A DNA stretch of 13,143 bases, taken from NCBI GenBank assembly GCA_009886815.1, contig QXYP01000178.1, positions 1 to 13,143 on the forward strand. The letters run 5' to 3'. This document shows, piece by piece, positions 78-13,143 of this stretch (position 1 is its first letter; the number at the start of each line of letters is the position of its first letter). The notes beneath the pieces are model-generated. The model worked only from the letters and a program-made list of their open reading frames with translations. It was not told where the DNA came from and ran no database searches. The DNA is from Halieaceae bacterium. Lineage in GTDB: Bacteria; Pseudomonadota; Gammaproteobacteria; Pseudomonadales; Halieaceae. Made by a program: the position numbers and the translations under genes.

Positions 78-1730
78 TTACATGTTGGGGTAGTTAGGTC
101 CACCAAAGCCCTCAGGGGTGACCCAAGTAATATTTTGTGACGGGTCTTTTATGTCGCACGTCTTACAATGCACACAGTTCTGCGCGTTAATCTGAAAGCG
201 CTGCCCTTGCGCGTCTTCCACAATTTCATAAACACCGGCAGGGCAGTAGCGCTGCGCGGGCTCATCGTATCGCGGCAAATTCTTCGCCAAAGGCACATTC
301 GGATCAAGCAACGTTAAGTGGCAAGGCTGATCTTCTTCATGGTTTGTATTAGACAAAAACACTGAGGACAAGCGGTCAAAAGTGACCACGTTGTCGGGCT
401 TGGGGTAACTCATCTTTTTCGCTTTGTCTGCGTCTTCTAGACACGCATAGTCGGGCTTCTGGTCTCGCAGTGTGAAAGGCAGCTTGCCGCCAAAAATGTT
501 TTGGTCAATCCATACCAGACCGGCACCGACAAGATAGCCAAACTTATGCATGAAGCCGGCAAAGTTGCGGGTTGTATAAAGTTCGTCGCCCAGCCACGAG
601 CCTTTAAGGCGCTCTGTGAAAGTCGTGAGATCTTTAGGTGCATCTTCACCATGAGAGAGGGCATCCATAAGGGTCTCGGCGGCAATCATGCCACTCTTCA
701 TGGCGGTATGATTACCTTTGATCTTCACGCTGTTTAAGGTCCCCGCATCGCAGCCAATCAAGAGTCCGCCTGGGAAGTGCATTTTAGGCAGCGAGTTGTG
801 CCCGCCCTTGGCAAGTGCCCGAGCGCCGTAAGCAATGCGGCTGCCGCCCTCAAGGACCGACTGTGTTGTTGGGTGGGTCTTCCAGCGCTGAAATTCTTCA
901 AAGGGGCTGAGGTGAGGGTTTGAATAGTTCAAGTCACAAATTAGGCCCAGGTACACCTGATTGTTTTCCGCATGGTACAGAAATGCGCCTCCTGAAGAGT
1001 TGCTCTCAGAGAGCGGCCAGCCAAGACCATGAACCACCTTGCCAGGTTCGTGCTTACCGGGCTCGATCTCCCATATTTCTTTAATACCAATGCCGTAATG
1101 CTGAGGGTCGGCGTTTTTGTCGAGTTCGAACTGCTGCATCAGCTGCTTACCGAGATGTCCTCGGCAACCTTCAGCAAATAACGTATACCGGGCATGCAGC
1201 TCCATGCTGGGCACGTAGGCGTCTTTTTGGGTGCCATCTAGACCTACACCCATTTCTCCAGTTGCAATGCCCTTTACGGCACCTGTTTCATCGTAAAGCA
1301 CCTCTGCCGCAGCAAATCCCGGATAAATTTCGACACCAAGCCCTTCAGCCTGCTCGGCCAGCCAACGGCAAACGTTACCCATGGATACTATGTAATTACC
1401 CTCATTATGAGTCGGCTTTGGAATCATGAAGTTGGGTAATTTGGTGGCGCCACTGCCGCTGGTGTAGAAATAGAAGGTATCTTCTGTCACGGGAGTGGAG
1501 AGCGGGGCGCCCATTTCTGCCCAGTTGGGGAGTAGTTCATTGAGGGCTCTGGGCTCCAGTACGGCGCCCGAGAGAATATGTGCGCCAACTTCTGAGCCTT
1601 TTTCTACTACGCAAACGGTAGTTTCTCGCTCTTGTTCCTGCGCCAATTGCATAACGCGTATTGCGGCAGACAATCCCGCAGGCCCTGCGCCAACAATAAC
1701 GACGTCAAACTCCATTGATTCGCGTTCCAT
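78..1730 (-). CDS. Electron transfer flavoprotein-ubiquinone oxidoreductase (ETF-QO)
   Basis: This 550-residue protein takes electrons from reduced ETF and passes them through FAD and a 4Fe-4S cluster to ubiquinone at the inner face of the cytoplasmic membrane. It links acyl-CoA and amino-acid dehydrogenases to respiration. The N-terminus carries a Rossmann FAD motif, G14-A-G-P-A-G19. The C-terminal ferredoxin-like domain has four cysteines, C496, C519, C522 and C525 (CVHCKTC), that would bind the 4Fe-4S cluster. Length matches bacterial homologues of about 550 residues, without the mitochondrial presequence. The ATG at 1730 gives the usual family N-terminus (MERESMEFDVVIVG). A GGGGG run about 9 nt upstream may serve as ribosome binding site; M6 is a less likely alternative start. 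It is divergent from etfBA, which encodes its electron donor, a common gammaproteobacterial arrangement. Identification is very secure from the two cofactor motifs and context. Confidence 0.97.
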   Translation of the reverse strand: MERESMEFDVVIVGAGPAGLSAAIRVMQLAQEQERETTVCVVEKGSEVGAHILSGAVLEPRALNELLPNWAEMGAPLSTPVTEDTFYFYTSGSGATKLPNFMIPKPTHNEGNYIVSMGNVCRWLAEQAEGLGVEIYPGFAAAEVLYDETGAVKGIATGEMGVGLDGTQKDAYVPSMELHARYTLFAEGCRGHLGKQLMQQFELDKNADPQHYGIGIKEIWEIEPGKHEPGKVVHGLGWPLSESNSSGGAFLYHAENNQVYLGLICDLNYSNPHLSPFEEFQRWKTHPTTQSVLEGGSRIAYGARALAKGGHNSLPKMHFPGGLLIGCDAGTLNSVKIKGNHTAMKSGMIAAETLMDALSHGEDAPKDLTTFTERLKGSWLGDELYTTRNFAGFMHKFGYLVGAGLVWIDQNIFGGKLPFTLRDQKPDYACLEDADKAKKMSYPKPDNVVTFDRLSSVFLSNTNHEEDQPCHLTLLDPNVPLAKNLPRYDEPAQRYCPAGVYEIVEDAQGQRFQINAQNCVHCKTCDIKDPSQNITWVTPEGFGGPNYPNM

Positions 1731-1747
1731 AGCGATTTTCCCCCAAA

Positions 1748-1785
1748 TTTGATCTTGCGTTACATATTTGATCTTGCGTTACATA
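1748..1785. repeat. Perfect tandem duplication of a 19-bp unit upstream of ETF-QO
   Basis: The unit TTTGATCTTGCGTTACATA occurs twice head to tail at 1748-1766 and 1767-1785 without a mismatch. It sits 18 to 55 nt upstream of the ETF-QO start codon, in its leader or promoter zone. A 19-bp period is close to two helical turns, so it could place two regulator sites on one DNA face, or it may be a recent slippage duplication. I do not recognise the unit as a known operator such as the PsrA or FadR consensus. Confidence 0.9.
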
Positions 1786-1793
1786 GTTGTATG

Positions 1794-1821
1794 GTGACTT
1801 ACGGTGCGGTACTGGTATAGT
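1794..1821 (+). promoter_or_regulatory. Candidate sigma-70 promoter for etfBA (upstream)
   Basis: A -35-like GTGACT (1794-1799) is followed after 16 nt by TATAGT (1816-1821). The -10 is preceded by TG one base away (1813-1814), giving an extended -10 element. Transcription would start near 1828 and make an etfBA leader of about 130 nt. This is inferred from consensus matching only. Confidence 0.45.
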
Positions 1822-1830
1822 CGCGCCCGA

Positions 1831-1844
1831 GGCAGATTTCTGCC
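1831..1844. other. Short inverted repeat GGCAGA-TT-TCTGCC
   Basis: A perfect 6-bp inverted repeat with a 2-nt centre lies just after the upstream candidate promoter. It could be an operator half-site pair near the transcription start or the first hairpin of an etfBA leader. With a 2-nt loop it would be a poor RNA hairpin, so a protein site is the likelier reading if it is functional. Confidence 0.35.
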
Positions 1845-1852
1845 CAACACAG

Positions 1853-1894
1853 CCACAGGTTCAAGCTTAAAACTGAACTTGTGGTCGCCTTTTT
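1853..1894 (+). promoter_or_regulatory. Terminator-like hairpin in the etfBA upstream region
   Basis: CCACAGGTTCA (1853-1863) pairs with TGAACTTGTGG (1874-1884) over 11 positions, ten Watson-Crick and one G-U, around a 10-nt loop. Five bases later comes a run of five T (1890-1894). On RNA this resembles an intrinsic terminator or attenuator, weakened by the gap before the T-run. It lies between the two candidate promoters, so it could terminate leader transcripts from the upstream one. As DNA it could equally be a long operator. Confidence 0.4.
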
Positions 1895-1906
1895 GAACTT
1901 CGGGTA

Positions 1907-1915
1907 TGTTACACT
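1907..1915 (+). promoter_or_regulatory. Candidate extended -10 promoter for etfBA (proximal)
   Basis: TG-T-TACACT forms an extended -10 element about 45 nt before the etfB start codon, which would give a short leader of roughly 38 nt. No convincing -35 is present at the expected distance, which is tolerated by extended -10 promoters. Inference only. Confidence 0.4.
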
Positions 1916-1959
1916 AAACACCCCGCAAAGCACTATTCTAGCAAAGCTACGGAGTCATA

Positions 1960-2712
1960 ATGAAAGCACTGGTCGCTGTTAAGCGCGTCGTTGATTATAA
2001 CGTCAAGGTACGCGCCAAAGCCGATGGCAGTGATGTTGAACTTAACAATGTCAAAATGGCCATCAACCCCTTTTGTGAGATCGCTGTCGAGGAGGCCGTG
2101 CGCCTCAAAGAGGCTGGAACGGTCTCTGAAGTCGTCGTGGTATCGGTGGGGGAAAAGTCTAGCCAAGAACAAATTCGTACTGCTCTCGCCCTGGGCGCTG
2201 ATCGTGGTATTCATGTTGAAGTGGAAGGGCGTCCCGAGCCCCTCGAAATTGCCAAGCTTTTAAAGGGCGTTGTTGATAAAGAACAGCCGCAGCTGGTCAT
2301 TTTGGGAAAACAGTCCATTGACGGTGACAATAACCAAACGGGGCAGATGCTAGGTGCATTGGCTAATATGGGCCAAGGGACTTTTGCTTCTGAGATCAAA
2401 ATCGACGGTGATAGCTTAGAAGTGATTCGGGAAGTGGACGGAGGACTGCAAACGCTCAAGTTGTCGCTCCCTGCGATTGTCACTACCGATCTGCGTTTAA
2501 ATGAGCCCCGATATGCTTCCCTGCCCAATATTATGAAGGCTAAGAAGAAGCCCTTAGACGTGACAAACCCTGAAGAGCTTGGAGTGAGTGTGACATCGCA
2601 CATTACACAACTCGGCGTGGCACCACCTCCTGAGCGCGCTGCAGGAATTAAGGTTGAGGATGTGGCTCAGCTGGTCGATAAACTCAAAAATGAAGCAAAG
2701 GTGATCTCATGA
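1960..2712 (+). CDS. etfB: Electron transfer flavoprotein subunit beta
   Basis: This is the 250-residue small subunit of the heterodimeric ETF, which accepts electrons from acyl-CoA, glutaryl-CoA and related dehydrogenases in the cytoplasm. The N-terminus MKALVAVKRVVDYNVKVR is the classic family start. The segment DGDNNQTG at 121-128 corresponds to the AMP-binding loop. NEPRYASLPNIMKAKKKPLD at 181-200 is the signature and recognition-loop region that docks on partner dehydrogenases. Length is typical of the family. The ATG has a GGAG ribosome binding site 5 nt upstream (1951-1954). Its stop overlaps the etfA start (ATGA), so the two subunits are translationally coupled for equal output. The divergent ETF-QO gene encodes its acceptor. 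Identification is secure. Confidence 0.98.
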   Translation: MKALVAVKRVVDYNVKVRAKADGSDVELNNVKMAINPFCEIAVEEAVRLKEAGTVSEVVVVSVGEKSSQEQIRTALALGADRGIHVEVEGRPEPLEIAKLLKGVVDKEQPQLVILGKQSIDGDNNQTGQMLGALANMGQGTFASEIKIDGDSLEVIREVDGGLQTLKLSLPAIVTTDLRLNEPRYASLPNIMKAKKKPLDVTNPEELGVSVTSHITQLGVAPPPERAAGIKVEDVAQLVDKLKNEAKVIS

Positions 2713-3638
2713 AGACGCTGGTTATTGCCGAACACGACAACAACACCCTCAAGCCTGCAACGCATAATGCAGTTGCCGCGGCACAAGCCATAGGGGGAGA
2801 CATTGATATTTTAGTGGCGGGGGCTGATTGCGGCGCTGTCGCTGAAGCTGCGGCGGCCATTCCTGGAGTTGGCAAAGTGCTGAGTGCTGATAACGCCGTA
2901 TATGCGAATCAACTGGCCGAAAATGTGGCCTTACTGATTGCTGATGTTGCGGCAGCCTACGACAACGTTGTGGCTCCTGCGACGACGGGCGGAAAGAACA
3001 CCATGCCAAGAGTTGCTGCGCTTATGGATGTCGCGCAGATTTCTGACATCATCGCAGTTGATAGCCCTGATACCTTTAAGCGACCCATCTACGCGGGCAA
3101 CGTAATAGCCACCGTGCAATCATCGGATGTTAAAAAAGTAATTACCGTGAGAACCACGGCTTTTGATGGTGTTCCAGAAGAGGGAGGCTCTGCAACGGTT
3201 GAGGCTGTAGCTGCGGCACATGACGCAGGTCTTTCGAGCTTTGTTGGCGAAGAGGTGGCGGTTTCAGATAGACCCGAGCTTACAGCTGCCTCAGTGGTTA
3301 TTTCGGGCGGTCGAGGCATGCAAAACGGTGACAATTTTCAGTTGTTGGAAGGCATTGCCGATAAGCTCGGTGCTGAGATTGGTGCTTCGCGAGCAGCCGT
3401 AGACGCCGGCTTTGTACCCAACGATTATCAGGTAGGGCAGACCGGTAAAATCGTTGCGCCAGACCTTTATATCGCCGTTGGCATCTCGGGTGCAATTCAG
3501 CACTTGGCAGGAATGAAAGACAGCAAGGTGATTGTTGCGATTAACAAAGATGAGGATGCGCCAATTTTTCAGGTGGCAGACTATGGCTTAGTCGCCGATC
3601 TGTTTCAGGCACTGCCCGAGTTAGAATCGGCCATTTAA
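2709..3638 (+). CDS. etfA: Electron transfer flavoprotein subunit alpha
   Basis: This is the 309-residue FAD-carrying large subunit of ETF. The N-terminal half (about 1-185) is the alpha/beta domain that pairs with the beta subunit. The C-terminal half is the FAD domain, with SGGRGM at 199-204, SRAAVDAG at 227-234, the flavin/adenosine-binding run QVGQTGKIVAP at 241-251 continuing through AVGISGAIQH, and INKDEDAPIF at 279-288. Length and all motifs are as in typical group I ETF that serves beta-oxidation. The ATG overlaps the etfB stop by 4 nt, with AAGGTG shortly upstream as ribosome binding site. The gene is followed by a strong intrinsic terminator, so etfBA forms a two-gene transcription unit. 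Confidence 0.98.
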   Translation: MKTLVIAEHDNNTLKPATHNAVAAAQAIGGDIDILVAGADCGAVAEAAAAIPGVGKVLSADNAVYANQLAENVALLIADVAAAYDNVVAPATTGGKNTMPRVAALMDVAQISDIIAVDSPDTFKRPIYAGNVIATVQSSDVKKVITVRTTAFDGVPEEGGSATVEAVAAAHDAGLSSFVGEEVAVSDRPELTAASVVISGGRGMQNGDNFQLLEGIADKLGAEIGASRAAVDAGFVPNDYQVGQTGKIVAPDLYIAVGISGAIQHLAGMKDSKVIVAINKDEDAPIFQVADYGLVADLFQALPELESAI

Positions 3639-5529: not shown

Positions 5530-6600
5530 TTAATCGCTGAACCTCATCGGTACTCGGCCCGTTAGTCGGGTGAGCAGCTCATAGCCTATGGTGCCACAAT
5601 GCCTAGCGACTTCATTGACCGGTAAATTTTTCCCCCACAGTTCGACGGGGGTGTCTAGTTGGCAGTTGGGGAAGTCGGTGACGTCGACCGTAATCATGTC
5701 CATCGAAACCCTGCCTACCAGCGGGAATCGTCCGTCTTGTATCCATACGGGTGTACCGTCCTCAGCGCCCCTTGGGTAACCGTCGCCATAGCCGACTGGA
5801 ACCGTTGCGATAAGGCTGTCACGTGTTGCTCGCCATCGTCCGCCGTAACCCACTGTTTCGCCCTCTGGAACCTGCCTTAGTGCCATAACTGCGGATTTGA
5901 AGGACATAACCGGAGTCAGGGACTTGGCCGTTCCTTTATCTGTGTGTTGCGCGCCGTACAGCATGATGCCCGGGCGCACCCAATCGGTAGGGGTTGCCAA
6001 GGTGTTGATGATAGCGGCTGAATTGGCCACGCTAGATTCTGAAGCCATCGAGGCTGTTAGTGCTTGCCACGCTTGCTGCTGGTTTAGGGTTACAGTCGAG
6101 GAGGGATTTTCCCCATCGGCATAATGGCTCATGAGAATCATCGAATCAGCACCCAATTGGCGCAGTCGTTTTATCACTTGGGGTGCTTCCGCTGGAGAGA
6201 AGCCCAATCTGTGCATACCAGTGTCCACTTTAATCCACAGCGGAGTTGTATATTGGTAACCGGCTTTTTCGAGAAGATCGATTTGGTGGTGACTGTGAAG
6301 TGTCATCATTAGGTCGTGTTCCTTGATGGCTTCAACATCCGCTCGATCAAATGGCCCCTCTAATACCAAGAGGGGAAGGGCAATGTTGTGTTGCCGCAGT
6401 CCAACCGCTTCTTCACAGAAAGCGACCGCAAAGCCATCAACGCTCTGACTCAATACCTCGCTGCAAGGAATAATGCCATGACCGTAGGCATTGGCTTTAA
6501 CCGAGGCCAGAATTTTACTGTTTCCGGCGAAACGGCGAGTTACCGCAGCGTTGTGTGAGAGCGCAGCGAGGTCAACAGATAGGGTTGTGGGTCTTGGCAC
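5530..6600 (-). CDS. alr: Alanine racemase
   Basis: This 356-residue PLP enzyme interconverts L- and D-alanine, for peptidoglycan synthesis or D-alanine use. The PLP lysine is K35 in SVKANAYGHG. The second catalytic base is Y252 in VGYGGRW. KVDTGMHRLG at 124-133 supplies the likely carbamylated-lysine position (K124) and the PLP-pyridine arginine (R131). GRVSMDM at 297-303 carries the substrate-site methionine of the opposite subunit. The fold is the usual N-terminal TIM barrel plus C-terminal beta domain, and length is normal. The start is GTG at 6600 with a weak ribosome binding site, 8 nt after the dat stop, so it is probably coupled to dat. Pairing with a D-amino-acid aminotransferase supplies or drains D-alanine for that enzyme. 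Whether this is the only Alr in the cell cannot be told from the window. Confidence 0.96.
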   Translation of the reverse strand: MPRPTTLSVDLAALSHNAAVTRRFAGNSKILASVKANAYGHGIIPCSEVLSQSVDGFAVAFCEEAVGLRQHNIALPLLVLEGPFDRADVEAIKEHDLMMTLHSHHQIDLLEKAGYQYTTPLWIKVDTGMHRLGFSPAEAPQVIKRLRQLGADSMILMSHYADGENPSSTVTLNQQQAWQALTASMASESSVANSAAIINTLATPTDWVRPGIMLYGAQHTDKGTAKSLTPVMSFKSAVMALRQVPEGETVGYGGRWRATRDSLIATVPVGYGDGYPRGAEDGTPVWIQDGRFPLVGRVSMDMITVDVTDFPNCQLDTPVELWGKNLPVNEVARHCGTIGYELLTRLTGRVPMRFSD

Positions 6601-6608
6601 GACTTATC

Positions 6609-7463
6609 TCAGGCGCTGTAGCGATGGTGAGCGAAGAGTGATTGGGCTGCTGCCCATACCGCTCCAGCCTTGCCACCACTGACGCTATGGCCGTCAATGG
6701 CGATAACAGGTGCAATTTCTTTGGTCGAACTAGTGAGCCAGACCTCATCGGCAGCCATAACTTCAGTACGCGAAACAGCGCGCTCTTCAACGCTCCAGCC
6801 GTCTCCCCGCAAAATATCGACCAGCATGTTACGGGTTACACCCGGTAACTTTTCAATGTCCAGAGGTGGTGTGATCACCGTTTTATTTTGCACGATAAAG
6901 ACATTGCAGGCAGCAGCTTCTGTGAGCTCTTCTTGCTCATTAAACAGAATAATTTCATCTGCACCCGAGTCAACGCCTTCCATCATGTGCAGCACATTTC
7001 CCAGTAGCGCAACAGATTTAATGTCGCAGCGCTTCCAGCGACGATCTGTGGCAGTTGCCACTTGGTAGCAGGTCGCCTTGTCAGGATCACCATTGCAGGG
7101 GGCATTTACGGTAAAGGTGTAGGCAAAAACGGTGGGTTGGCAGTCGACGGGAAATCGGTGATTTCGAACCGGAGAAGTTCCACGCGTTACCTGAAGATAG
7201 ACACCCTGATAGTCACCTGCATTTTGCGCGGTTAATTTAGAAAAAAGTGTGTGCCACTTGTCTGCTGTGAGGGGGTTTTCAAGTTGAATTGCTGCTAAGC
7301 CCTGATCGAGACGCTGCATGTGCCGTTTAAAGCCGACCAGCTGACCGTTGTAGGAGGGTATTACCTCGTAGATACCGTCACCAAATAAGAAGCCACGATC
7401 CATCGGAGAAATACGTGCCTCCTCTAAAGGTACAAACTCACCGTTAAGGTAGGCGATGGTCAT
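6609..7463 (-). CDS. dat: D-amino-acid aminotransferase (D-alanine transaminase)
   Basis: This 284-residue fold-type IV PLP aminotransferase would catalyse D-alanine + 2-oxoglutarate to pyruvate + D-glutamate, in both directions and on other D-amino acids. The Schiff-base lysine is K149 in CDIKSVALLGNVL. E182 in LTEAAACN contacts the PLP nitrogen. Y32 in GDGIYE and the substrate-carboxylate pair R100/H102 in SPVRNHRFP match the R-x-H signature of D-specific enzymes and differ from branched-chain or 4-amino-4-deoxychorismate members. LPGVTRNMLVDIL at 206-218 is the family phosphate-binding region. Length matches Bacillus D-AAT (about 283). The ATG overlaps the upstream stop (ATGA), and a GGGGGT run about 9 nt upstream may act as ribosome binding site. 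It sits between the DUF4392 cyclase-like gene and alr, which strongly supports D-alanine/D-glutamate as physiological substrates. Confidence 0.93.
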   Translation of the reverse strand: MTIAYLNGEFVPLEEARISPMDRGFLFGDGIYEVIPSYNGQLVGFKRHMQRLDQGLAAIQLENPLTADKWHTLFSKLTAQNAGDYQGVYLQVTRGTSPVRNHRFPVDCQPTVFAYTFTVNAPCNGDPDKATCYQVATATDRRWKRCDIKSVALLGNVLHMMEGVDSGADEIILFNEQEELTEAAACNVFIVQNKTVITPPLDIEKLPGVTRNMLVDILRGDGWSVEERAVSRTEVMAADEVWLTSSTKEIAPVIAIDGHSVSGGKAGAVWAAAQSLFAHHRYSA

Positions 7464-8308
7464 TCGTTGTTACCCCCACTAATTATTAGCCTGATCTCTT
7501 GAATAAGAGCCTCACCCACAGCAGCCTCAAAGCCATCTTCAGTATTAGTTGGCTCGTGGCTTACGCCGTCGACAGCGCCTAAGTCTACGCAACGCTGGAG
7601 CAGCGCATCGGTATCAAGCCAGTCTAGGACCGGACGGTCGCACAACGCTTCAGCGATGGCGATCAATGCATAGGCCCCCCAGTTTGAGACGTCGGCAACA
7701 ATAAGCTCATCGCATCCGATACGTGCTGGCTTTATATCAAGTCTGTCCAGTATCTGGCCAGCCCGACCCATACCCGCTTCATTGCCACCATCGCCAATGG
7801 CAATAACGGGACAAGTTGCCAGCTCTAAAAGCGGCTCCACGGGGCGGCAGGCCTCGGTGATGTCTTTTCCCGCAATATTGTAGAAGCGGCCGTCTGCTGC
7901 GGCCCCAGGTCTTTCAATGACAATAATGAGTGAGGGTGATAGATCAAGCAGCAGCCCCTGTGCTTCAGCGTGAGCCCCCTCATAGTCAAAGCTCTTAAGT
8001 GGATAAGTTCGAATCGACTCGCCCAAAGCGCGGATGATGGCATCACCGGTTAAAAGCCAGGGTGTGCGGCCTAAGCTCTCTAAAAAGTGATAAAGCGCAA
8101 ACGCGCCGGGTGGGCCGTCAGTCTCAAAGGTTCCTGCTACTGGGAATCCAGTACAAATGATGATGTTCCCTTCCGCTGCAATAGTGCTTTGTGCGGCACG
8201 CAGAAGATAACTGGATGGCAGCGACTCTTGTACCATCCGCATGCCCCTAGGGTTTCGGGCAACCAGAGCACGCTCTATTTGGCGACTGATGTCTGCTGAA
8301 GGGATCAA
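7460..8308 (-). CDS. DUF4392 protein (C-terminal-domain homologue of D-glutamate cyclase DGLUCY)
   Basis: This 282-residue protein resembles the DUF4392 family, known as the C-terminal domain of the mitochondrial D-glutamate cyclase that forms 5-oxo-D-proline from D-glutamate. Conserved-looking blocks are GFPVAGTFETDGPPGA at 54-69, IERPGAAADGRFYN at 131-144, IGDGGNEAGMG at 171-181 and VADVSNWGAYAL at 204-215. There is no signal peptide or membrane segment, so it is cytoplasmic. The start is TTG at 8308, overlapping the pxpC stop as TTGA; the next Met is residue 23 and would trim a region that looks part of the fold. It has no strong ribosome binding site, so translation probably depends on pxpC. 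The catalytic role of this half alone is not established to my knowledge. Partnership with the operon's DUF1445 protein is inference from the eukaryotic fusion. Confidence 0.85.
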   Translation of the reverse strand: MIPSADISRQIERALVARNPRGMRMVQESLPSSYLLRAAQSTIAAEGNIIICTGFPVAGTFETDGPPGAFALYHFLESLGRTPWLLTGDAIIRALGESIRTYPLKSFDYEGAHAEAQGLLLDLSPSLIIVIERPGAAADGRFYNIAGKDITEACRPVEPLLELATCPVIAIGDGGNEAGMGRAGQILDRLDIKPARIGCDELIVADVSNWGAYALIAIAEALCDRPVLDWLDTDALLQRCVDLGAVDGVSHEPTNTEDGFEAAVGEALIQEIRLIISGGNNE

Positions 8309-9285
8309 AGGGCCGTGTTTCCCAAGCTAGTCAGGGCCTTGAGGTGCGTCTCTTCATAGTGGTCGTGTAACCAAACAATTTGCTCTGCAGTCGTTGGGCT
8401 TATTGCTTCGAGTTTAACCATTTGTCCAGCTCTTGCTTGCCCAAGTCGCACCCGGTCTGGTGGAATAATGACCCCCAGCTGAGGGTAGCCGCCCATGGTT
8501 TGGCGGTCATTCAAAAGTACCAGAGGCTGTCCGTCCGGGGGAACTTGAATCGAGCCTAAACACGTGGCCTCTGACCAAAGTTTTGTCAGGCCAGTGTCAA
8601 TCGGATTTCCGCTCAGAGGGATGGCCATACGATTGGCGGCTCCGGAAATACTAAAGGTTTTCTCACACAAGGTTTCTCTGCAGGACTCGGTCACTTCGTC
8701 GTAATGCATGCCAGGTATAAATCTCAAGTGGAGAATATCAGTGTGGAGCTGCGTTTCATCGCGTTGTCGACGTTCTCCGCGGGGGCGCATCTTCGGGACA
8801 TCTTGCGGTACTGGCAGATCGGCAACCGGCAACAAATCCCCGGGCTGTAAGGCTTGCCCATTCAGCCCGCCAAAGCCTTCGCGAATAACCGTACTGCGGC
8901 TCCCCAGAACAGCTGGGGTAGTAATACCGCCTTTCACAGCCAGGTAACTGTACGTACCGGTCAGAGTTCTGCCAATGGTAATGGTCGAATTGGCCTCGAC
9001 ATATAAGGGCTGATCAATTGGCTGCTGCTCGTCGTTAATATGCAGCGTGACGGGAGCGCCACATAGCGATACCTGTAAATCGCAGGTTGTCTTTAGGGTC
9101 AAGCCGGCCAAAACGATTTCAATGCCAGCGAGATCGTCTGTATTGCCCAGTAAGCGGTTAGCACAACGAAGTGAGAAGGCGTCTACAGCGCCCCCTGTGG
9201 TGATGCCATGGCCTAAATAACCAAGGCGACCCAGATCCTGCACGGTAGCAAGCAGTCCCGGATTGATCACACTAAGGCCGTTCAC
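8305..9285 (-). CDS. pxpC: 5-oxoprolinase subunit PxpC (KipA-like, biotin-dependent carboxyltransferase family)
   Basis: This 326-residue protein is one of three subunits of prokaryotic ATP-dependent 5-oxoprolinase, which opens 5-oxoproline to glutamate; with PxpB it is related to the two parts of allophanate hydrolase/urea carboxylase. Family features are NPGLLATVQDLGRLGYLGHG at 8-27, the D35-A-F-S start of the first core helix, SGAANRMAIPLSG at 214-226, and PPDGQPLVLLNDRQTMGGYP at 249-268. Length matches E. coli YbgK and B. subtilis KipA (310 to 335). It starts at GTG 9285, overlapping the pxpB stop as GTGA. A second in-frame GTG at codon 6 would cut into the conserved N-terminus, so the first is preferred. 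Cytoplasmic, expected to bind PxpB directly. Identification is secure by motif and gene order. Confidence 0.95.
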   Translation of the reverse strand: MNGLSVINPGLLATVQDLGRLGYLGHGITTGGAVDAFSLRCANRLLGNTDDLAGIEIVLAGLTLKTTCDLQVSLCGAPVTLHINDEQQPIDQPLYVEANSTITIGRTLTGTYSYLAVKGGITTPAVLGSRSTVIREGFGGLNGQALQPGDLLPVADLPVPQDVPKMRPRGERRQRDETQLHTDILHLRFIPGMHYDEVTESCRETLCEKTFSISGAANRMAIPLSGNPIDTGLTKLWSEATCLGSIQVPPDGQPLVLLNDRQTMGGYPQLGVIIPPDRVRLGQARAGQMVKLEAISPTTAEQIVWLHDHYEETHLKALTSLGNTAL

Positions 9286-9956
9286 AGCGTACCGCCCAGA
9301 GAGAGAAATTCATCGCGAGTGATGGGTTTAAAGGACACTTGGTCACCTACGGCGATCAAGCCCGGAGGTGATTGCTCTAAGTCGAAAAGTGGCAGAGGGC
9401 AACGTCCCAACAAGTGCCACCCACCCGGTGAAACTGCGGGATAAACCGCCGTTTGCCGATCGGCGATGGCGACGCTACCTGCGGGTACAGCCCGTCGAGG
9501 GGTCTGTAAACGCGGCATGTCCAGCTGCTCAGAGATGTTTCCTAGGTAACAAAAACCTGGGGAAAATCCGGTGGCAAAAGCCGTATATTGATTACCAGAA
9601 TGCAGCTCAATCACTGCCTGCACTGACAGGCCGCTGTGTTCCGCCACTACTGCCAGGTCTTGGCCCGATTCTTCTGCATACCACACGGGCAATTCAACCG
9701 CTCGCCCGGCGCATTGCTGGCTTCCTACGATGTTATCTAAATCGCCAATGGCTGCCAGTAAGGCTTCTCGAGAAAGCTCGGTAGGATTAAAAAAAAGTGT
9801 GAGGGTTCTGTAGCCAAGCACACAGTCAGTGAGCCCCTTGGGATATTGCTTTGTCAGTCGATCCCGCAGGTCTAAAAGGCTCGCGGTAACAGAAGCACTG
9901 GGTGCGCCATCATAACTCAAGCGAATACCTGTTAGACCGGCATAGCTCCAGTGCAT
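9282..9956 (-). CDS. pxpB: 5-oxoprolinase subunit PxpB (KipI-like)
   Basis: This 224-residue protein is the KipI/allophanate-hydrolase-subunit-1-type component of 5-oxoprolinase, forming the ATP-using part with PxpC. The C-terminal cyclophilin-like domain shows ELHSGNQYTAFATGFSPGF at 117-135, then PRRAVPAGSVAIADRQTAVY at 153-172 and SPGGWHLLGRCPLPLFD at 176-192, all hallmarks of the family. Length matches E. coli YbgJ (218) and KipI (240). The ATG at 9956 lies 3 nt after the pxpA stop, and its own stop overlaps the pxpC start by 4 nt. In B. subtilis the homologue was first described as an inhibitor of the sporulation kinase KinA; beside pxpA and pxpC the enzymatic role is far more likely. Confidence 0.95.
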   Translation of the reverse strand: MHWSYAGLTGIRLSYDGAPSASVTASLLDLRDRLTKQYPKGLTDCVLGYRTLTLFFNPTELSREALLAAIGDLDNIVGSQQCAGRAVELPVWYAEESGQDLAVVAEHSGLSVQAVIELHSGNQYTAFATGFSPGFCYLGNISEQLDMPRLQTPRRAVPAGSVAIADRQTAVYPAVSPGGWHLLGRCPLPLFDLEQSPPGLIAVGDQVSFKPITRDEFLSLGGTL

Positions 9957-9959
9957 CGG

Positions 9960-10754
9960 TCAGCCTGCAGGTGTTTGTAGCGCTGTACGGATCGCCCTGA
10001 GCATCTCTAATGCCGCAGGAGTATCTCCGTGTACACAAAGGGTATCGGGGACAATGTTGAGTTTGTGTCCCTTAACGCTGCGTAGCGTACCCGAGGCGAT
10101 GGCCTTCGCCTGGGCGATCGCCGCCTCGAGATCCAAAAGTGCACCGGGCTTATCCCTTGGAACCAAATAACCGGCCCGTGTATATCCTCTGTCCGCAAAG
10201 GCCTCAAAACGTAAACTCAAGCCATAATCAAAGGCCGTTGCAACGGATTTTTTATCTCTGGGAGTGGCAAGCATGACTAACTCAAGGGAACGATAATAGG
10301 AGGCAACGGCTTGCATGATTGTTCGTTCGAGTTCGGCGCTGGTGTTCATATCGTTGTACAGGGCCCCGTGCGGCTTTACATAGGTGACACGTCCCCCATA
10401 GGTCCGGGCCATACCGTCTAGCGCAGAGATTTGATAGTGAATACAGTCAATAAGCTCCTGACCCCGGAGATTCATTGAGCGACGGCCAAAGCCCTGTAAA
10501 TCCGGATAAGCGACGTGGGCGCCAATTTCCACTTTATGGCGCTTGGCGAGTTTGACGGTCTCACGGATGATTCTAGGGTCACCGCCATGATAACCGCAGG
10601 CCACGTTTGCGCAGTCGATGAGGGGCATAATTTCCTCATCGCAGCCCATTTTATAGGCGCCAAAACCTTCGCCTAAATCACAGTTCAGTTTAATGCTTAA
10701 GGGGCTGGGTTGTTTTTTTCGGGCGCGGCTAACAACTCTCGTGACGGCTTTCAC
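9960..10754 (-). CDS. pxpA: 5-oxoprolinase subunit PxpA (LamB/YcsF family), with N-terminal extension
   Basis: This 264-residue protein is the LamB/YcsF-family subunit of 5-oxoprolinase. The core carries [10 protein letters not shown] at 23-32, [12 protein letters not shown] at 49-60, [15 protein letters not shown] at 78-92, VKPHGALYN at 126-134, [15 protein letters not shown] at 187-201 and [10 protein letters not shown] at 237-246, so all key His/Asp-rich motifs are present. Typical members begin almost at the DLGEG motif. Here about 20 basic residues ([20 protein letters not shown]) precede it. GTG at 10754 is the only ATG, GTG or TTG codon before the core in this frame, and it overlaps the DUF1445 stop as GTGA, so the extension seems genuine unless a rare ATT at codon 21 is used. 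The codons include a run of seven A, but the frame is open throughout. Confidence 0.95.
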
Positions 10755-11554
10755 AGTATGGCGAGTCCTGTATTGGGCTTATCGGATACCAGCATATAGC
10801 CGGGAGCATGGGTAAAGGCCAGAGGCACTTTGGCGTTTTCAAGTGCTACCTGCGGAGTAACACCGCAGGCCCAAAATAAAGGGACTTCGTGTTCTGCTAT
10901 CGACACGGCCTCTCCAAAATCGGGGTCTTGCAGGCTTTCGATACCGATTTGTGTGGGGTCGCCAAAATGAATGGGTGCGCCGTGAACGGCCGGGAAGCGG
11001 GTGCAAATTTGAATGGCTCTTATCGCGTCTTTAGGTTTCATGGGGCGCATGCTAACAACGACGTTGCCTGCGAAGGGGCCCGCGCTAATGCACGGTAGAT
11101 TAGTTCGAAACATGGGGACATTCACCCCTTCGGATATATTGCGTATTTCGAGTCCATCGGCGATGAGCGCCTCTTCGAAAGAAAATGAGCAGCCGAGTGC
11201 GAAAGCTACGCAGTCATCGGCCCAATGATCGAGTAGATGATCAGGCTCCTCGGTTAATACCCCGTTCTCCCAGCGTCGATATCGAGGTAGGTCGGTGCGA
11301 ACATCAATATCCGCGCCGAGCTCGGGTAAACTGAAATCTCCGGGCTCAGGGCTTACGGCCAGGAGAGGGCAGGGCTTTGGATTGCGCCGACAAAAATCGG
11401 CGAAGTCGCTGGCGTAATTTTGAGGGATGATCACCAAATTACACTGGACGAAACCGGGGGCGAGACCACTGGTAGGTTCTGTGAGGTTGCCCTGGCGTGC
11501 AGCAAGACGCAGCTGTTTGGGCGCCATGGACTTATGCGGGTCACCAACGGTCAC
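10751..11554 (-). CDS. DUF1445 protein (putative hydro-lyase; N-terminal-half homologue of D-glutamate cyclase)
   Basis: This is a 267-residue DUF1445/UPF0317 protein (YcsI-like), the family forming the N-terminal half of mitochondrial D-glutamate cyclase DGLUCY, which converts D-glutamate to 5-oxo-D-proline. From the chosen start, blocks include [15 protein letters not shown] near residue 28, [67 protein letters not shown] and [11 protein letters not shown], all typical of the family. I place the start at GTG 11554 because AAAGGAGGT (11567-11559) lies 5 nt upstream and the length then fits the usual 260 to 270. The longer ATG start at 11635 would add 27 unrelated residues and overlap the divergent gene. 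Methionine at 11527 is another fallback. It is first in the operon and overlaps pxpA by 4 nt. YcsI also neighbours pxp genes in Bacillus. Confidence 0.9.
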
Positions 11555-11558
11555 TTTT

Positions 11559-11567
11559 ACCTCCTTT
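11559..11567 (-). promoter_or_regulatory. Strong Shine-Dalgarno that fixes the DUF1445 start
   Basis: Read on the minus strand this is AAAGGAGGT, a near-perfect anti-16S match, 5 nt before a GTG codon at 11554-11552. It lies inside the frame that would be used from the upstream ATG at 11635, which argues that GTG is the true start of the operon's first gene. Confidence 0.85.
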
Positions 11568-11626
11568 GCTTTAACTCGCGGCGAGCTCTTGTATAGTAAG
11601 CGAAACATACCATTGCGAGTACCCCG
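11568..11626. promoter_or_regulatory. Divergent promoter region with overlapping -10-like boxes and inverted repeats
   Basis: TATAGT (11592-11597, plus strand) could be a -10 for the acyl-CoA synthetase gene. On the minus strand the same bases give TACTAT and TATACA, candidates for the D-glutamate operon, so the two promoters would compete. No good -35 is seen for either, suggesting activator dependence. ACTCGC (11574-11579), GCGAGC (11581-11586) and GCGAGT (11615-11620) are related short elements. The first two make a CTCGC-G-GCGAG palindrome and the first and third an inverted pair bracketing the -10 boxes. Consensus inference only. Confidence 0.45.
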
Positions 11627-13143
11627 ATGCCCCATATATCAATTACTGCAGCAGAAACACCCCACAAACCGGCCTTCATTATGGCGAACTCTGGTGAAAT
11701 GGTGACCTATGGCGAGTTAGAAGCCAGAAGTAATCAGGTTGCACATTTGTTTCGCCTTTGCGGACTTCAGTCAGGTGATCACGTCGCGATCATGGTGGAA
11801 AACTGCCGGCAGTTTCTCGAAATTACAACCGGTGCCATGCGCTCCGGTATTATTTTCACGCCGATCAGTACGCACCTCAAAGCCGATGAGACGGCGTATA
11901 TTTTAGAGAATTGCGGTGCACAGTTGTTCGTTGCGTCCCATTCGCTAACCTCAGTGGCCCTTCATATGGTGGGCAGCGCCGAGGCTCTCAAGCACTTTTA
12001 TATGATTGGCGGTATCGAAGACGGATTTTTATCCTGGGAGGAAACCGTCGATGTGTTGCCTGTGTCGCCTATTGATGACCAAGCTATGGGCACCACCATG
12101 CTGTATTCGTCGGGCACTACGGGCAAGCCCAAGGGGGTTTATAACAAGCCTTATACCGAAATTTTTGATGAGCCACTGCCGCTAACGCTGTCCTTGGGCG
12201 CGGCTTTTGGATTTGGCCCCGAAACCACCTATCTATCTCCGGCGCCGCTTTATCACGCTGCGCCGTTACACTACAACATGGTGGTGCTCGATACGGGTGG
12301 CACTTCCATCATCATGGAAAAGTTCAACGCCATCCGAGCTTTGGAGCTGATACAAGAGCACAGAATTACCCACAGTCAGTGGGTGCCCATTATGTTTGTC
12401 CGAATGCTCAAGCTACCCGAAGATCAGCGTAATCAGTTCGATACCAGCTCAATGCAGGTGGCTATTCATGCGGCTGCTCCGTGCCCCATCGATGTTAAAG
12501 AGCAAATGATAAATTGGTGGGGGCCGGTGATCCTTGAATACTATTCATCGAGCGAGGGTGCGGGTTTTACCTTGATAGACTCCAATGATTGGCTCAACCA
12601 CAAAGGCTCAGTGGGACGCCCCTTGTTTGGCGTACCTCATGTGTTAGACGAGGAGGGCAATGAACTGCCCGCTGGGGAGGTTGGGAGCATCTGGTTTTCC
12701 GATATCGCTAATAAATTTGAATACCATAATGAGCCGACTAAGACCGCAGAGGCTTACAACAAAGATGGTTGGACCTCTGTGGGTGACATGGGTTACCTCG
12801 ATGAAGAGGGCTATTTGTATCTCACCGACCGTAAGAATTTCACCATTATTTCCGGTGGGGTCAATATTTATCCTGCAGAAATCGAAAACCTGTTAATCAA
12901 TCATGACAAGGTCGCCGACGTGGCCGTTTTTGGCGTGCCCTGCGATGAATTTGGTGAGTCCGTTCAGGCCGTAGTCCAGCCTGCAAGTTGGGGCGATGCG
13001 ACAGATGAAACAGCGATGGAGCTTATGGAGTGGCTCAAAGAGCGACTGTCGCACATCAAAATCCCTAAAAACCTCGATTTCATGGAGCAGCTTCCCAGGA
13101 TGGACAATGGCAAGCTCTACAAGCGCCACTTGATGGAGGCGTA
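11627..13143 (+). CDS. Acyl-CoA synthetase (class I AMP-forming ligase), cut at the window end
   Basis: This frame stays open for 505 codons to the window edge. The enzyme activates a carboxylic acid with ATP to an acyl-adenylate and transfers it to CoA. Motifs are the P-loop [11 protein letters not shown] at 160-170, YYSSSEG at 305-311, GSVGRP at 327-332, the ribose-binding D387 in VGDMGY, the hinge region DRKN at 401-404 followed by [14 protein letters not shown], and the catalytic lysine K496 in DNGKLYKR. It resembles fatty-acid/aromatic/steroid-type FadD-like ligases; substrate cannot be assigned. The first ATG (11627) is used; its ribosome binding site is weak, and an in-frame stop lies 30 nt upstream. 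The last two bases of the window are ta, so the next codon is either a stop or Tyr, and at most a few residues are probably missing. It is divergent from the D-glutamate operon. ETF genes in the same window would serve its beta-oxidation pathway. Confidence 0.93.

Follow-up and report, generated by a model that had tools for sequence, protein, structure and literature searches.

In the mouse, a single protein that carries both the DUF1445 and the DUF4392 families converts D-glutamate (D-Glu) to 5-oxo-D-proline, and knock-out animals accumulate D-Glu (PMC5339696); in gut bacteria, six split homologues of the human protein have been counted before (PMC12547972). In Gram-positive bacteria (Bacillus, Staphylococcus), Dat, a fold-type-IV transaminase, interconverts D-Ala plus 2-oxoglutarate and D-Glu plus pyruvate (PMC13251936). 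We describe an operon of a Halieaceae bacterium in which DUF1445, the 5-oxoprolinase genes pxpA, pxpB and pxpC, DUF4392, dat and the alanine racemase gene alr follow one another on one strand. The window, meaning the whole stretch of DNA analysed, is one entire contig (C88, 13,143 b) of a metagenome-assembled genome of 2.7 Mb that is ~86% complete and has Luminiphilus (Halieaceae) as its closest named relatives. The operon is a conserved and apparently undescribed combination of known enzyme families, no description of it having been found in the open-access literature, with most subscription papers outside that scope.

We consider it fairly probable that the operon works as a supply-and-drain unit for the D-amino acids of the cell wall, in bacteria most of which have no glutamate racemase (MurI). 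In such a unit, Alr would convert L-Ala to D-Ala, and Dat would pass the amino group of D-Ala to 2-oxoglutarate, giving D-Glu for MurD. Surplus D-Glu would be turned into 5-oxoproline by a metal-dependent cyclase made of DUF1445 and DUF4392, and PxpABC would reopen the ring with ATP, so that carbon and nitrogen would not be lost. Dat catalyses a reversible transamination, so the level of D-Glu would depend on the pools of D-Ala, 2-oxoglutarate and pyruvate, and a drain would be a plausible control. The enzyme activities, the direction of flow and the regulatory role of the drain are predictions from sequence comparison. If they are right, the operon explains in concrete terms how cell-wall D-Glu can be produced in many marine gammaproteobacteria that have no MurI, and offers a reason for a bacterial D-glutamate cyclase, an enzyme whose mammalian role is unclear.

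Gene content and conservation of the operon

The seven genes lie on the minus strand of the window. From the upstream end, DUF1445 (10751..11554, GTG start), the predicted N-terminal half of the cyclase, is followed by the contiguous pxpA (9960..10754, GTG start), pxpB (9282..9956) and pxpC (8305..9285, GTG start), encoding 5-oxoprolinase subunits A, B and C, then by DUF4392 (7460..8308, TTG start), the predicted C-terminal half of the cyclase, by dat (6609..7463), for a D-amino-acid aminotransferase of pyridoxal-phosphate fold type IV, and by alr (5530..6600, GTG start). Neighbouring genes overlap by 4 nt at DUF1445/pxpA, pxpB/pxpC, pxpC/DUF4392 and DUF4392/dat, and are separated by 3 nt at pxpA/pxpB and 8 nt at dat/alr. 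In a Pfam scan each of the seven proteins matches its expected family far over the cut-off: PF07286 for DUF1445 (210 bits), PF03746 for PxpA, PF02682 for PxpB, PF02626 for PxpC, PF14336 for DUF4392 (200 bits), PF01063 for Dat, and PF01168 with PF00842 for Alr. Among NCBIfam models, Alr passes TIGR00492 (335.7 bits, cut-off 168), PxpB passes TIGR00370 (166 bits, cut-off 145.55) and DUF1445 passes the hydro-lyase model NF003969 (383.7 bits, cut-off 324). PxpA passes two subfamily models (e.g., NF003816, 312.5 bits against a cut-off of 213) and falls under the cut-off of three equivalog models; PxpC passes TIGR00724 and misses the equivalog NF045499 (190.4 against 500 bits). The DUF4392 protein gave no match in NCBIfam, where this family has no model.

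The arrangement is found well beyond the window. Of 525 DUF4392 loci in named genomes, the best 80 were used, so that this sample leans to close relatives; the order-wide and phylum-wide samples were drawn evenly. Among the 42 of these 80 loci that are named and have at least 7 kb on each side of DUF4392, gene order is unbroken in all 42 when genes on the same strand within 7 kb are counted and Dat matches below 34% identity are dropped. All seven genes are present in 24 of them and all except alr in 11; DUF1445, PxpA, PxpB and PxpC occur in 41 loci each, Dat in 38 and Alr in 25, and the upstream Alr-like gene (31%) of L170 and L208 is not counted. The hosts of the named loci include Halieaceae, Porticoccaceae/SAR92, Oceanospirillaceae, Arsukibacterium, Alishewanella, Pseudoalteromonas, Bowmanella and Thiotrichaceae, and a same-strand dat is missing at the Thiotrichaceae, Bowmanella and Lacimicrobium loci. 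DUF4392 is present in 18 of 38 relatives (source genome included), and 14 of the 17 other carriers have the seven genes in order. Two more end inside the operon at contig ends, and the remaining one, L023 (genome G027), has pxpA-DUF4392-dat-alr only, with its DUF1445 on another contig. Of 116 genomes of the order, 19, again including the source genome, have DUF4392 over the cut-off, and by gene coordinates dat lies within 2 kb of it on the same strand in 18 of these 19.

Because the order is conserved across loci, we reject the idea that the operon is a rare curiosity. The original prediction is borne out in its description of the locus: the shared strand of the seven genes, the 4-nt overlap at four junctions and the gaps (3 nt and 8 nt) at the other two are exact to the base in frame coordinates, the gene identities hold, and the functional linkage of the genes is upheld within Gammaproteobacteria, where they are not rarely linked (42/42 loci for order, 14/17 relatives, 18/19 for dat linkage). 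Beyond the closer kin, a minority of DUF4392 genes lie in a dat-linked operon. In the phylum-wide sample, DUF4392 occurs in 11 of 397 genomes, and the dat-linked operon occurs in 2 of the 10 other than the source genome; neither of the two includes alr, L231 having six genes and L233 lacking pxpA too.

Other phylum-wide loci place DUF4392 in different surroundings. L234 and L235 have a DUF1445-DUF4392 pair without pxp; the pair adjoins a PALP-fold enzyme dependent on pyridoxal phosphate in L234 (7864-10449), and an RpiR-type regulator and an FAD/Fe-S oxidase in L235 (7168-12651), where a Dat gene piece also lies 8 kb off on the opposite strand. L232 and L236 encode giant DUF4392 proteins with a DUF1445 gene in the neighbourhood, namely a 3573-aa protein with two DUF4392 domains and DUF4781, adjoined by DUF1445 (L232, 5679-16400), and a 1412-aa protein with one DUF4392 domain, about 5 kb from DUF1445 (L236, 6076-10314). 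Pfam ruled out a reading of these giants as non-ribosomal peptide synthetases.

Within the window, the longest DUF1445 frame spans 10751-11635 on the minus strand, and the GTG at 11554 is backed as the start by a ribosome-binding site, AAAGGAGGT, read in the sequence at 11567-11559 (11559..11567, minus strand). Promoter and terminator scans yielded about as much as shuffled sequences. The operon is flanked by a divergent AMP-binding (acyl-CoA synthetase-like) gene and by ppx. At 78-3638, a gene for ETF-ubiquinone oxidoreductase lies opposite etfB-etfA, and the same block adjoins the operon in L025, L031, L033, L035 and L036. A gene for a LysR-type regulator is found between DUF4392 and dat in L160, L166, L168, L169, L178, L188, L194, L196, L197 and L213; it is on the opposite strand in L178, and was confirmed by Pfam in L166 and L188 and recognised by likeness elsewhere. 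In L037 (G011), ppx, alr, DUF4392 and DUF1445 are each split into two frames, the operon there being either in decay or badly assembled.

Glutamate racemase, Dat and Alr

The source genome, at 86% completeness, gives no MurI match, weak ones included, and MurI (TIGR00067 over the cut-off) is found in none of 25 genomes of the genus, including the 97-99% complete carriers G004, G010 and G016. The same model fires in known genomes, B. subtilis among them, and in nine genomes of other families. The single match of the Alr model in the source genome is the alr of the operon, and a close Dat, complete or partial, is present in 20 of the 25 genus genomes. In the order sample (116 genomes, at least 95% complete except the source genome; MurI at E<=1e-20, Dat at E<=1e-45), MurI is missing in 15 of 19 DUF4392 carriers and in 19 of 97 non-carriers (Fisher p 1e-6, ignoring kinship), and Dat is present in 29 of 34 MurI-less genomes against 12 of 82 that bear MurI (Fisher p 6e-13, likewise ignoring kinship). 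A further 49 DUF4392 genomes were reached from 49 of the 80 named loci, and 41 of these have no MurI over the cut-off. With alr inside the operon, 24 of 26 such genomes lack MurI; linkage of alr is not significantly associated with MurI (Fisher p 0.12, ignoring kinship). Since most carriers have no MurI and the source genome's single alr match is located here, Alr and Dat most likely make D-Ala and D-Glu for peptidoglycan; this is the simplest reading, and the two enzymes would be biosynthetic for the cell wall at least in part.

The name Dat is taken from the nearest solved relatives and the site residues of the protein rather than from curated models, both of which it misses. Its best solved relatives are the D-amino-acid aminotransferases 4PBC, 4M0J and 3DAA/1DAA. 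The carboxylate trap Y32, R100 and H102 aligns with Y31, R98 and H100 of 3DAA, and the lysine of the CDIKS motif aligns with the catalytic lysine of 3DAA, Lys145.

The pattern of loss among relatives bears on the direction of flow. In five operon-less Luminiphilus (G006, G014, G017, G018 and G020), dat-alr is kept, flanked by the acyl-CoA synthetase gene and ppx, and the other five operon genes are missing at this site; DUF1445 and DUF4392 were found nowhere in a genome-wide search of the five. That these relatives have no 5-oxoprolinase at all was considered and rejected, as they carry a divergent pxpABC elsewhere, with PxpA 36-39% identical in the four compared (L216-L218 and L220) and a Nramp gene beside it in L216 and L217 (Pfam), as in the Bacillus ycs operon.

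The original prediction had read the operon as a complete route from alanine and peptidoglycan-derived D-amino acids through D-Glu and 5-oxoproline to glutamate. In this catabolic explanation, Alr and Dat would gather alanine and D-amino acids into D-Glu, which the cyclase and then PxpABC would convert to L-Glu for growth. We regard it as rather unlikely, and this flow is the part of the interpretation that is poorly supported. It has in its favour that all steps but one are encoded together, that marine hosts meet D-amino acids, and that 8 of the 49 further carriers keep MurI, so that Dat is not needed for D-Glu there. However, with MurI absent from all 25 genus genomes over the cut-off and from 15 of the 19 order-sample carriers, and with the source genome's only Alr located here, flow would be at least partly towards D-Glu; the five relatives that lack the DUF1445/DUF4392 pair still have dat-alr at this site; and only 2 of the 10 other phylum-wide DUF4392 genomes have the dat-linked operon. 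Furthermore, no transporter is found among the seven genes, whereas the pxpABC of operon-less relatives adjoins a Nramp gene. The one step not encoded is a racemisation. As the product of the mammalian cyclase is 5-oxo-D-proline, a complete route to glutamate needs such a step, and we know of no operon gene that racemises 5-oxoproline; an L-specific PxpABC would break the chain, and a D-specific one would return D-Glu.

The predicted cyclase pair, 5-oxoprolinase and MurD-like fusions

DUF1445 and DUF4392 look like a two-subunit metal-dependent D-glutamate cyclase that would drain surplus D-Glu, because the two families co-occur, are also found fused, and the metal site is conserved. Among the 38 relatives, DUF1445 is present in all 18 DUF4392 carriers and in one of the 20 others (the DUF1445-only G037), and bare DUF1445-DUF4392 pairs without pxp occur in two genomes. 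Both families lie in one chain in all nine proteins scanned, and two listed proteins with both come from a eukaryotic source. The solved relatives of DUF1445 are 3DB9 and 2PIF, and those of DUF4392 are the TON_0340 structures, with whose metal ligands E59, D61, E115, D157, E161 and D246 the residues E62, D64, E132, D173, E177 and D258 align. These six acidic ligands are invariant in an alignment of 17 sequences (A1).

The role of PxpABC in a supply-and-drain unit would depend on its chirality. If PxpABC is L-specific, the drain would end at 5-oxo-D-proline and PxpABC would have another job; if it takes the D form, D-Glu would return at the cost of ATP. In a quick PxpA tree, in which relatives L021-L037 were not included and from which only positions are used, the operon-linked PxpA (named loci and window) groups separately both from that of E. 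coli and from the PxpA that operon-less relatives encode beside a transporter gene. At the dat-linked locus of G034, PxpA, in a genome with pxpABC near dat-alr and without DUF4392, falls at the base of the operon-linked group, and an unlinked PxpA of G029 falls inside it, though these details are unsure where several long branches meet.

Both the tree and the G034 locus would suit an explanation by repair or salvage, in which a D-specific PxpABC would reopen 5-oxo-D-proline that had arisen from D-Glu by a spontaneous reaction or from muropeptides whose N-terminal D-Glu is free, so that D-Glu rejoins the Dat/MurD pool, with DUF1445/DUF4392 acting as a cyclotransferase or running in reverse. We think this distinctly unlikely, given that the mammalian DUF1445-DUF4392 protein turns free D-Glu into 5-oxo-D-proline (PMC5339696) and that operon-less, MurI-less relatives manage without.

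A possible tie between the cyclase and peptidoglycan synthesis comes from fusion proteins. A search with a joined DUF1445-DUF4392 query found six chains of 864-945 residues that combine DUF4392, MurD-like N-terminal and middle domains, and DUF1445. A search with one fusion found 330 proteins, the best 120 of which all carry DUF4392 and Mur-ligase domains; as this set was picked by similarity to a fusion, its counts should not be read as frequencies for DUF4392 proteins at large. The fusions are labelled P0132, P0133, P0140, P0142, P0144, P0159 and P0240-P0353, and six chains also carry DUF1445. Compared with E. coli MurD, Lys115, Asn138, His183 and Lys198 are kept in all 120. Ser116 and Glu157, which we take to be active-site residues, are lost in all 120 (119 Arg and 1 Trp; 119 Ala and 1 Ser, respectively), and the C-terminal positions presumed to bind D-Glu are gapped in 116-120 of them. 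Consistent with this, a Pfam scan of the six fusion chains and nine more did not find the Mur ligase C-terminal domain. Where an organism is named among the best 120, it is Planctomycetota or Phycisphaerae, and the vast majority of the PVC group, Planctomycetota included, lacks MurI (PMC5885031). No description of DUF4392-MurD fusions was found in the open-access literature, with the same scope as above.

The fusion of DUF4392 to a MurD-like domain ties the family to MurD, a consumer of D-Glu in the cell wall. Judged by its residues, the MurD-like part would be a pseudo-ligase that senses the substrate of MurD, and through such fusions the draining of D-Glu would be coupled to how peptidoglycan synthesis is proceeding. 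As a tentative possibility, the DUF1445/DUF4392 cyclase could be a control valve of peptidoglycan that burns D-Glu when UDP-MurNAc-L-Ala, the other substrate of MurD, is scarce. The planctomycetal valve would have its sensor in the MurD pseudo-ligase joined to DUF4392, and the gammaproteobacterial valve would sit in the dat-alr operon. MurI is elsewhere under allosteric control, and the valve would do the same job in bacteria without MurI; on this view, the ancestor of human DGLUCY would be an enzyme of cell-wall control.

That the bacterial DUF1445/DUF4392 pair is no cyclase at all and acts, for example, as a phosphatase or a hydro-lyase on another small acid is very unlikely, for although DUF1445 is named 'putative hydro-lyase' and TON_0340 acts on phosphorus compounds as a Mn-dependent phosphatase (PMC5132392), the mammalian protein with both families is a D-Glu cyclase whose loss makes mice accumulate D-Glu (PMC5339696), and the association with dat, with pxp and with MurD-like domains argues for D-Glu.

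Several observations weigh against the operon as a supply-and-drain unit. Encoded side by side, a cyclase and a ring opener that spends ATP are a futile cycle unless separated by chirality or regulation. We know of no enzyme assay of these bacterial proteins, and Dat scores under both NCBIfam cut-offs for D-amino-acid transaminase (NF005209, 249.1 against 320; TIGR01121, 228 against 277.45). The sole biochemical study of a lone DUF4392 protein, that of TON_0340, describes the Mn-dependent phosphatase (PMC5132392). At 4 of the 10 phylum-wide loci (L227-L230), DUF4392 has no partner gene beside it, with a Dat-like piece 9 kb off in L230. Operon members are also missing at some loci: pxpB and pxpC in L023 and in Pseudoalteromonas L195, both of which keep pxpA-DUF4392-dat; pxpA in L208 and L233; and DUF1445 in L163. 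No close Dat is found in 5 of the 25 genus genomes, which are 54-94% complete, and in 7 of the 25 the racemase model gives weak partial matches, under the cut-off at E 1e-6 to 7e-6. Weak matches under the cut-off also occur in 17 of the 41 further genomes without MurI over it; these and the former may represent different proteins of the racemase superfamily, a glutamate racemase possibly among them. Finally, besides the 8 of 49 carriers that keep MurI, 6 of the 49 have neither MurI over the cut-off nor a nearby same-strand Dat (L164, L184, L200, L204, L210 and L214).

Comparison with known systems

Mammalian DGLUCY (9030617O03Rik), a DUF1445-DUF4392 fusion, contains the same Pfam halves, PF07286 and PF14336, as are encoded here; in the window, they are two separate genes that share an operon with pxpABC, dat and alr, and the bacterial cyclase is predicted. 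The ycsF-ycsG-ycsI-kipI-kipA (pxp) operon of B. subtilis, for 5-oxoproline use, likewise links pxpABC with a DUF1445 gene (ycsI), but DUF4392 is present here and gave no match in the control genomes, and the Bacillus operon is not known to contain dat or alr. It does include ycsG, an NRAMP-family gene whose product is a Mn importer (PMC10448178), and B. subtilis has MurI. TON_0340 of Thermococcus (PDB 5GKX, 5GL2-5GL4) belongs to the same DUF4392 family and has the same metal site, whereas it was reported as a phosphatase and, according to that report, DUF1445 homologues are not found in archaea (PMC5132392). Unlike the Dat of Gram-positive bacteria, the Dat described here belongs to Gammaproteobacteria that mostly lack MurI, and its gene shares an operon with alr and the predicted cyclase genes. 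In Xanthomonas, the MurD2-MurL route gives D-Glu without MurI. The chlamydial DapF racemase does so as well (PMC5885031), and both solve the same problem, the supply of D-Glu without MurI, with enzymes unrelated to those of the operon.

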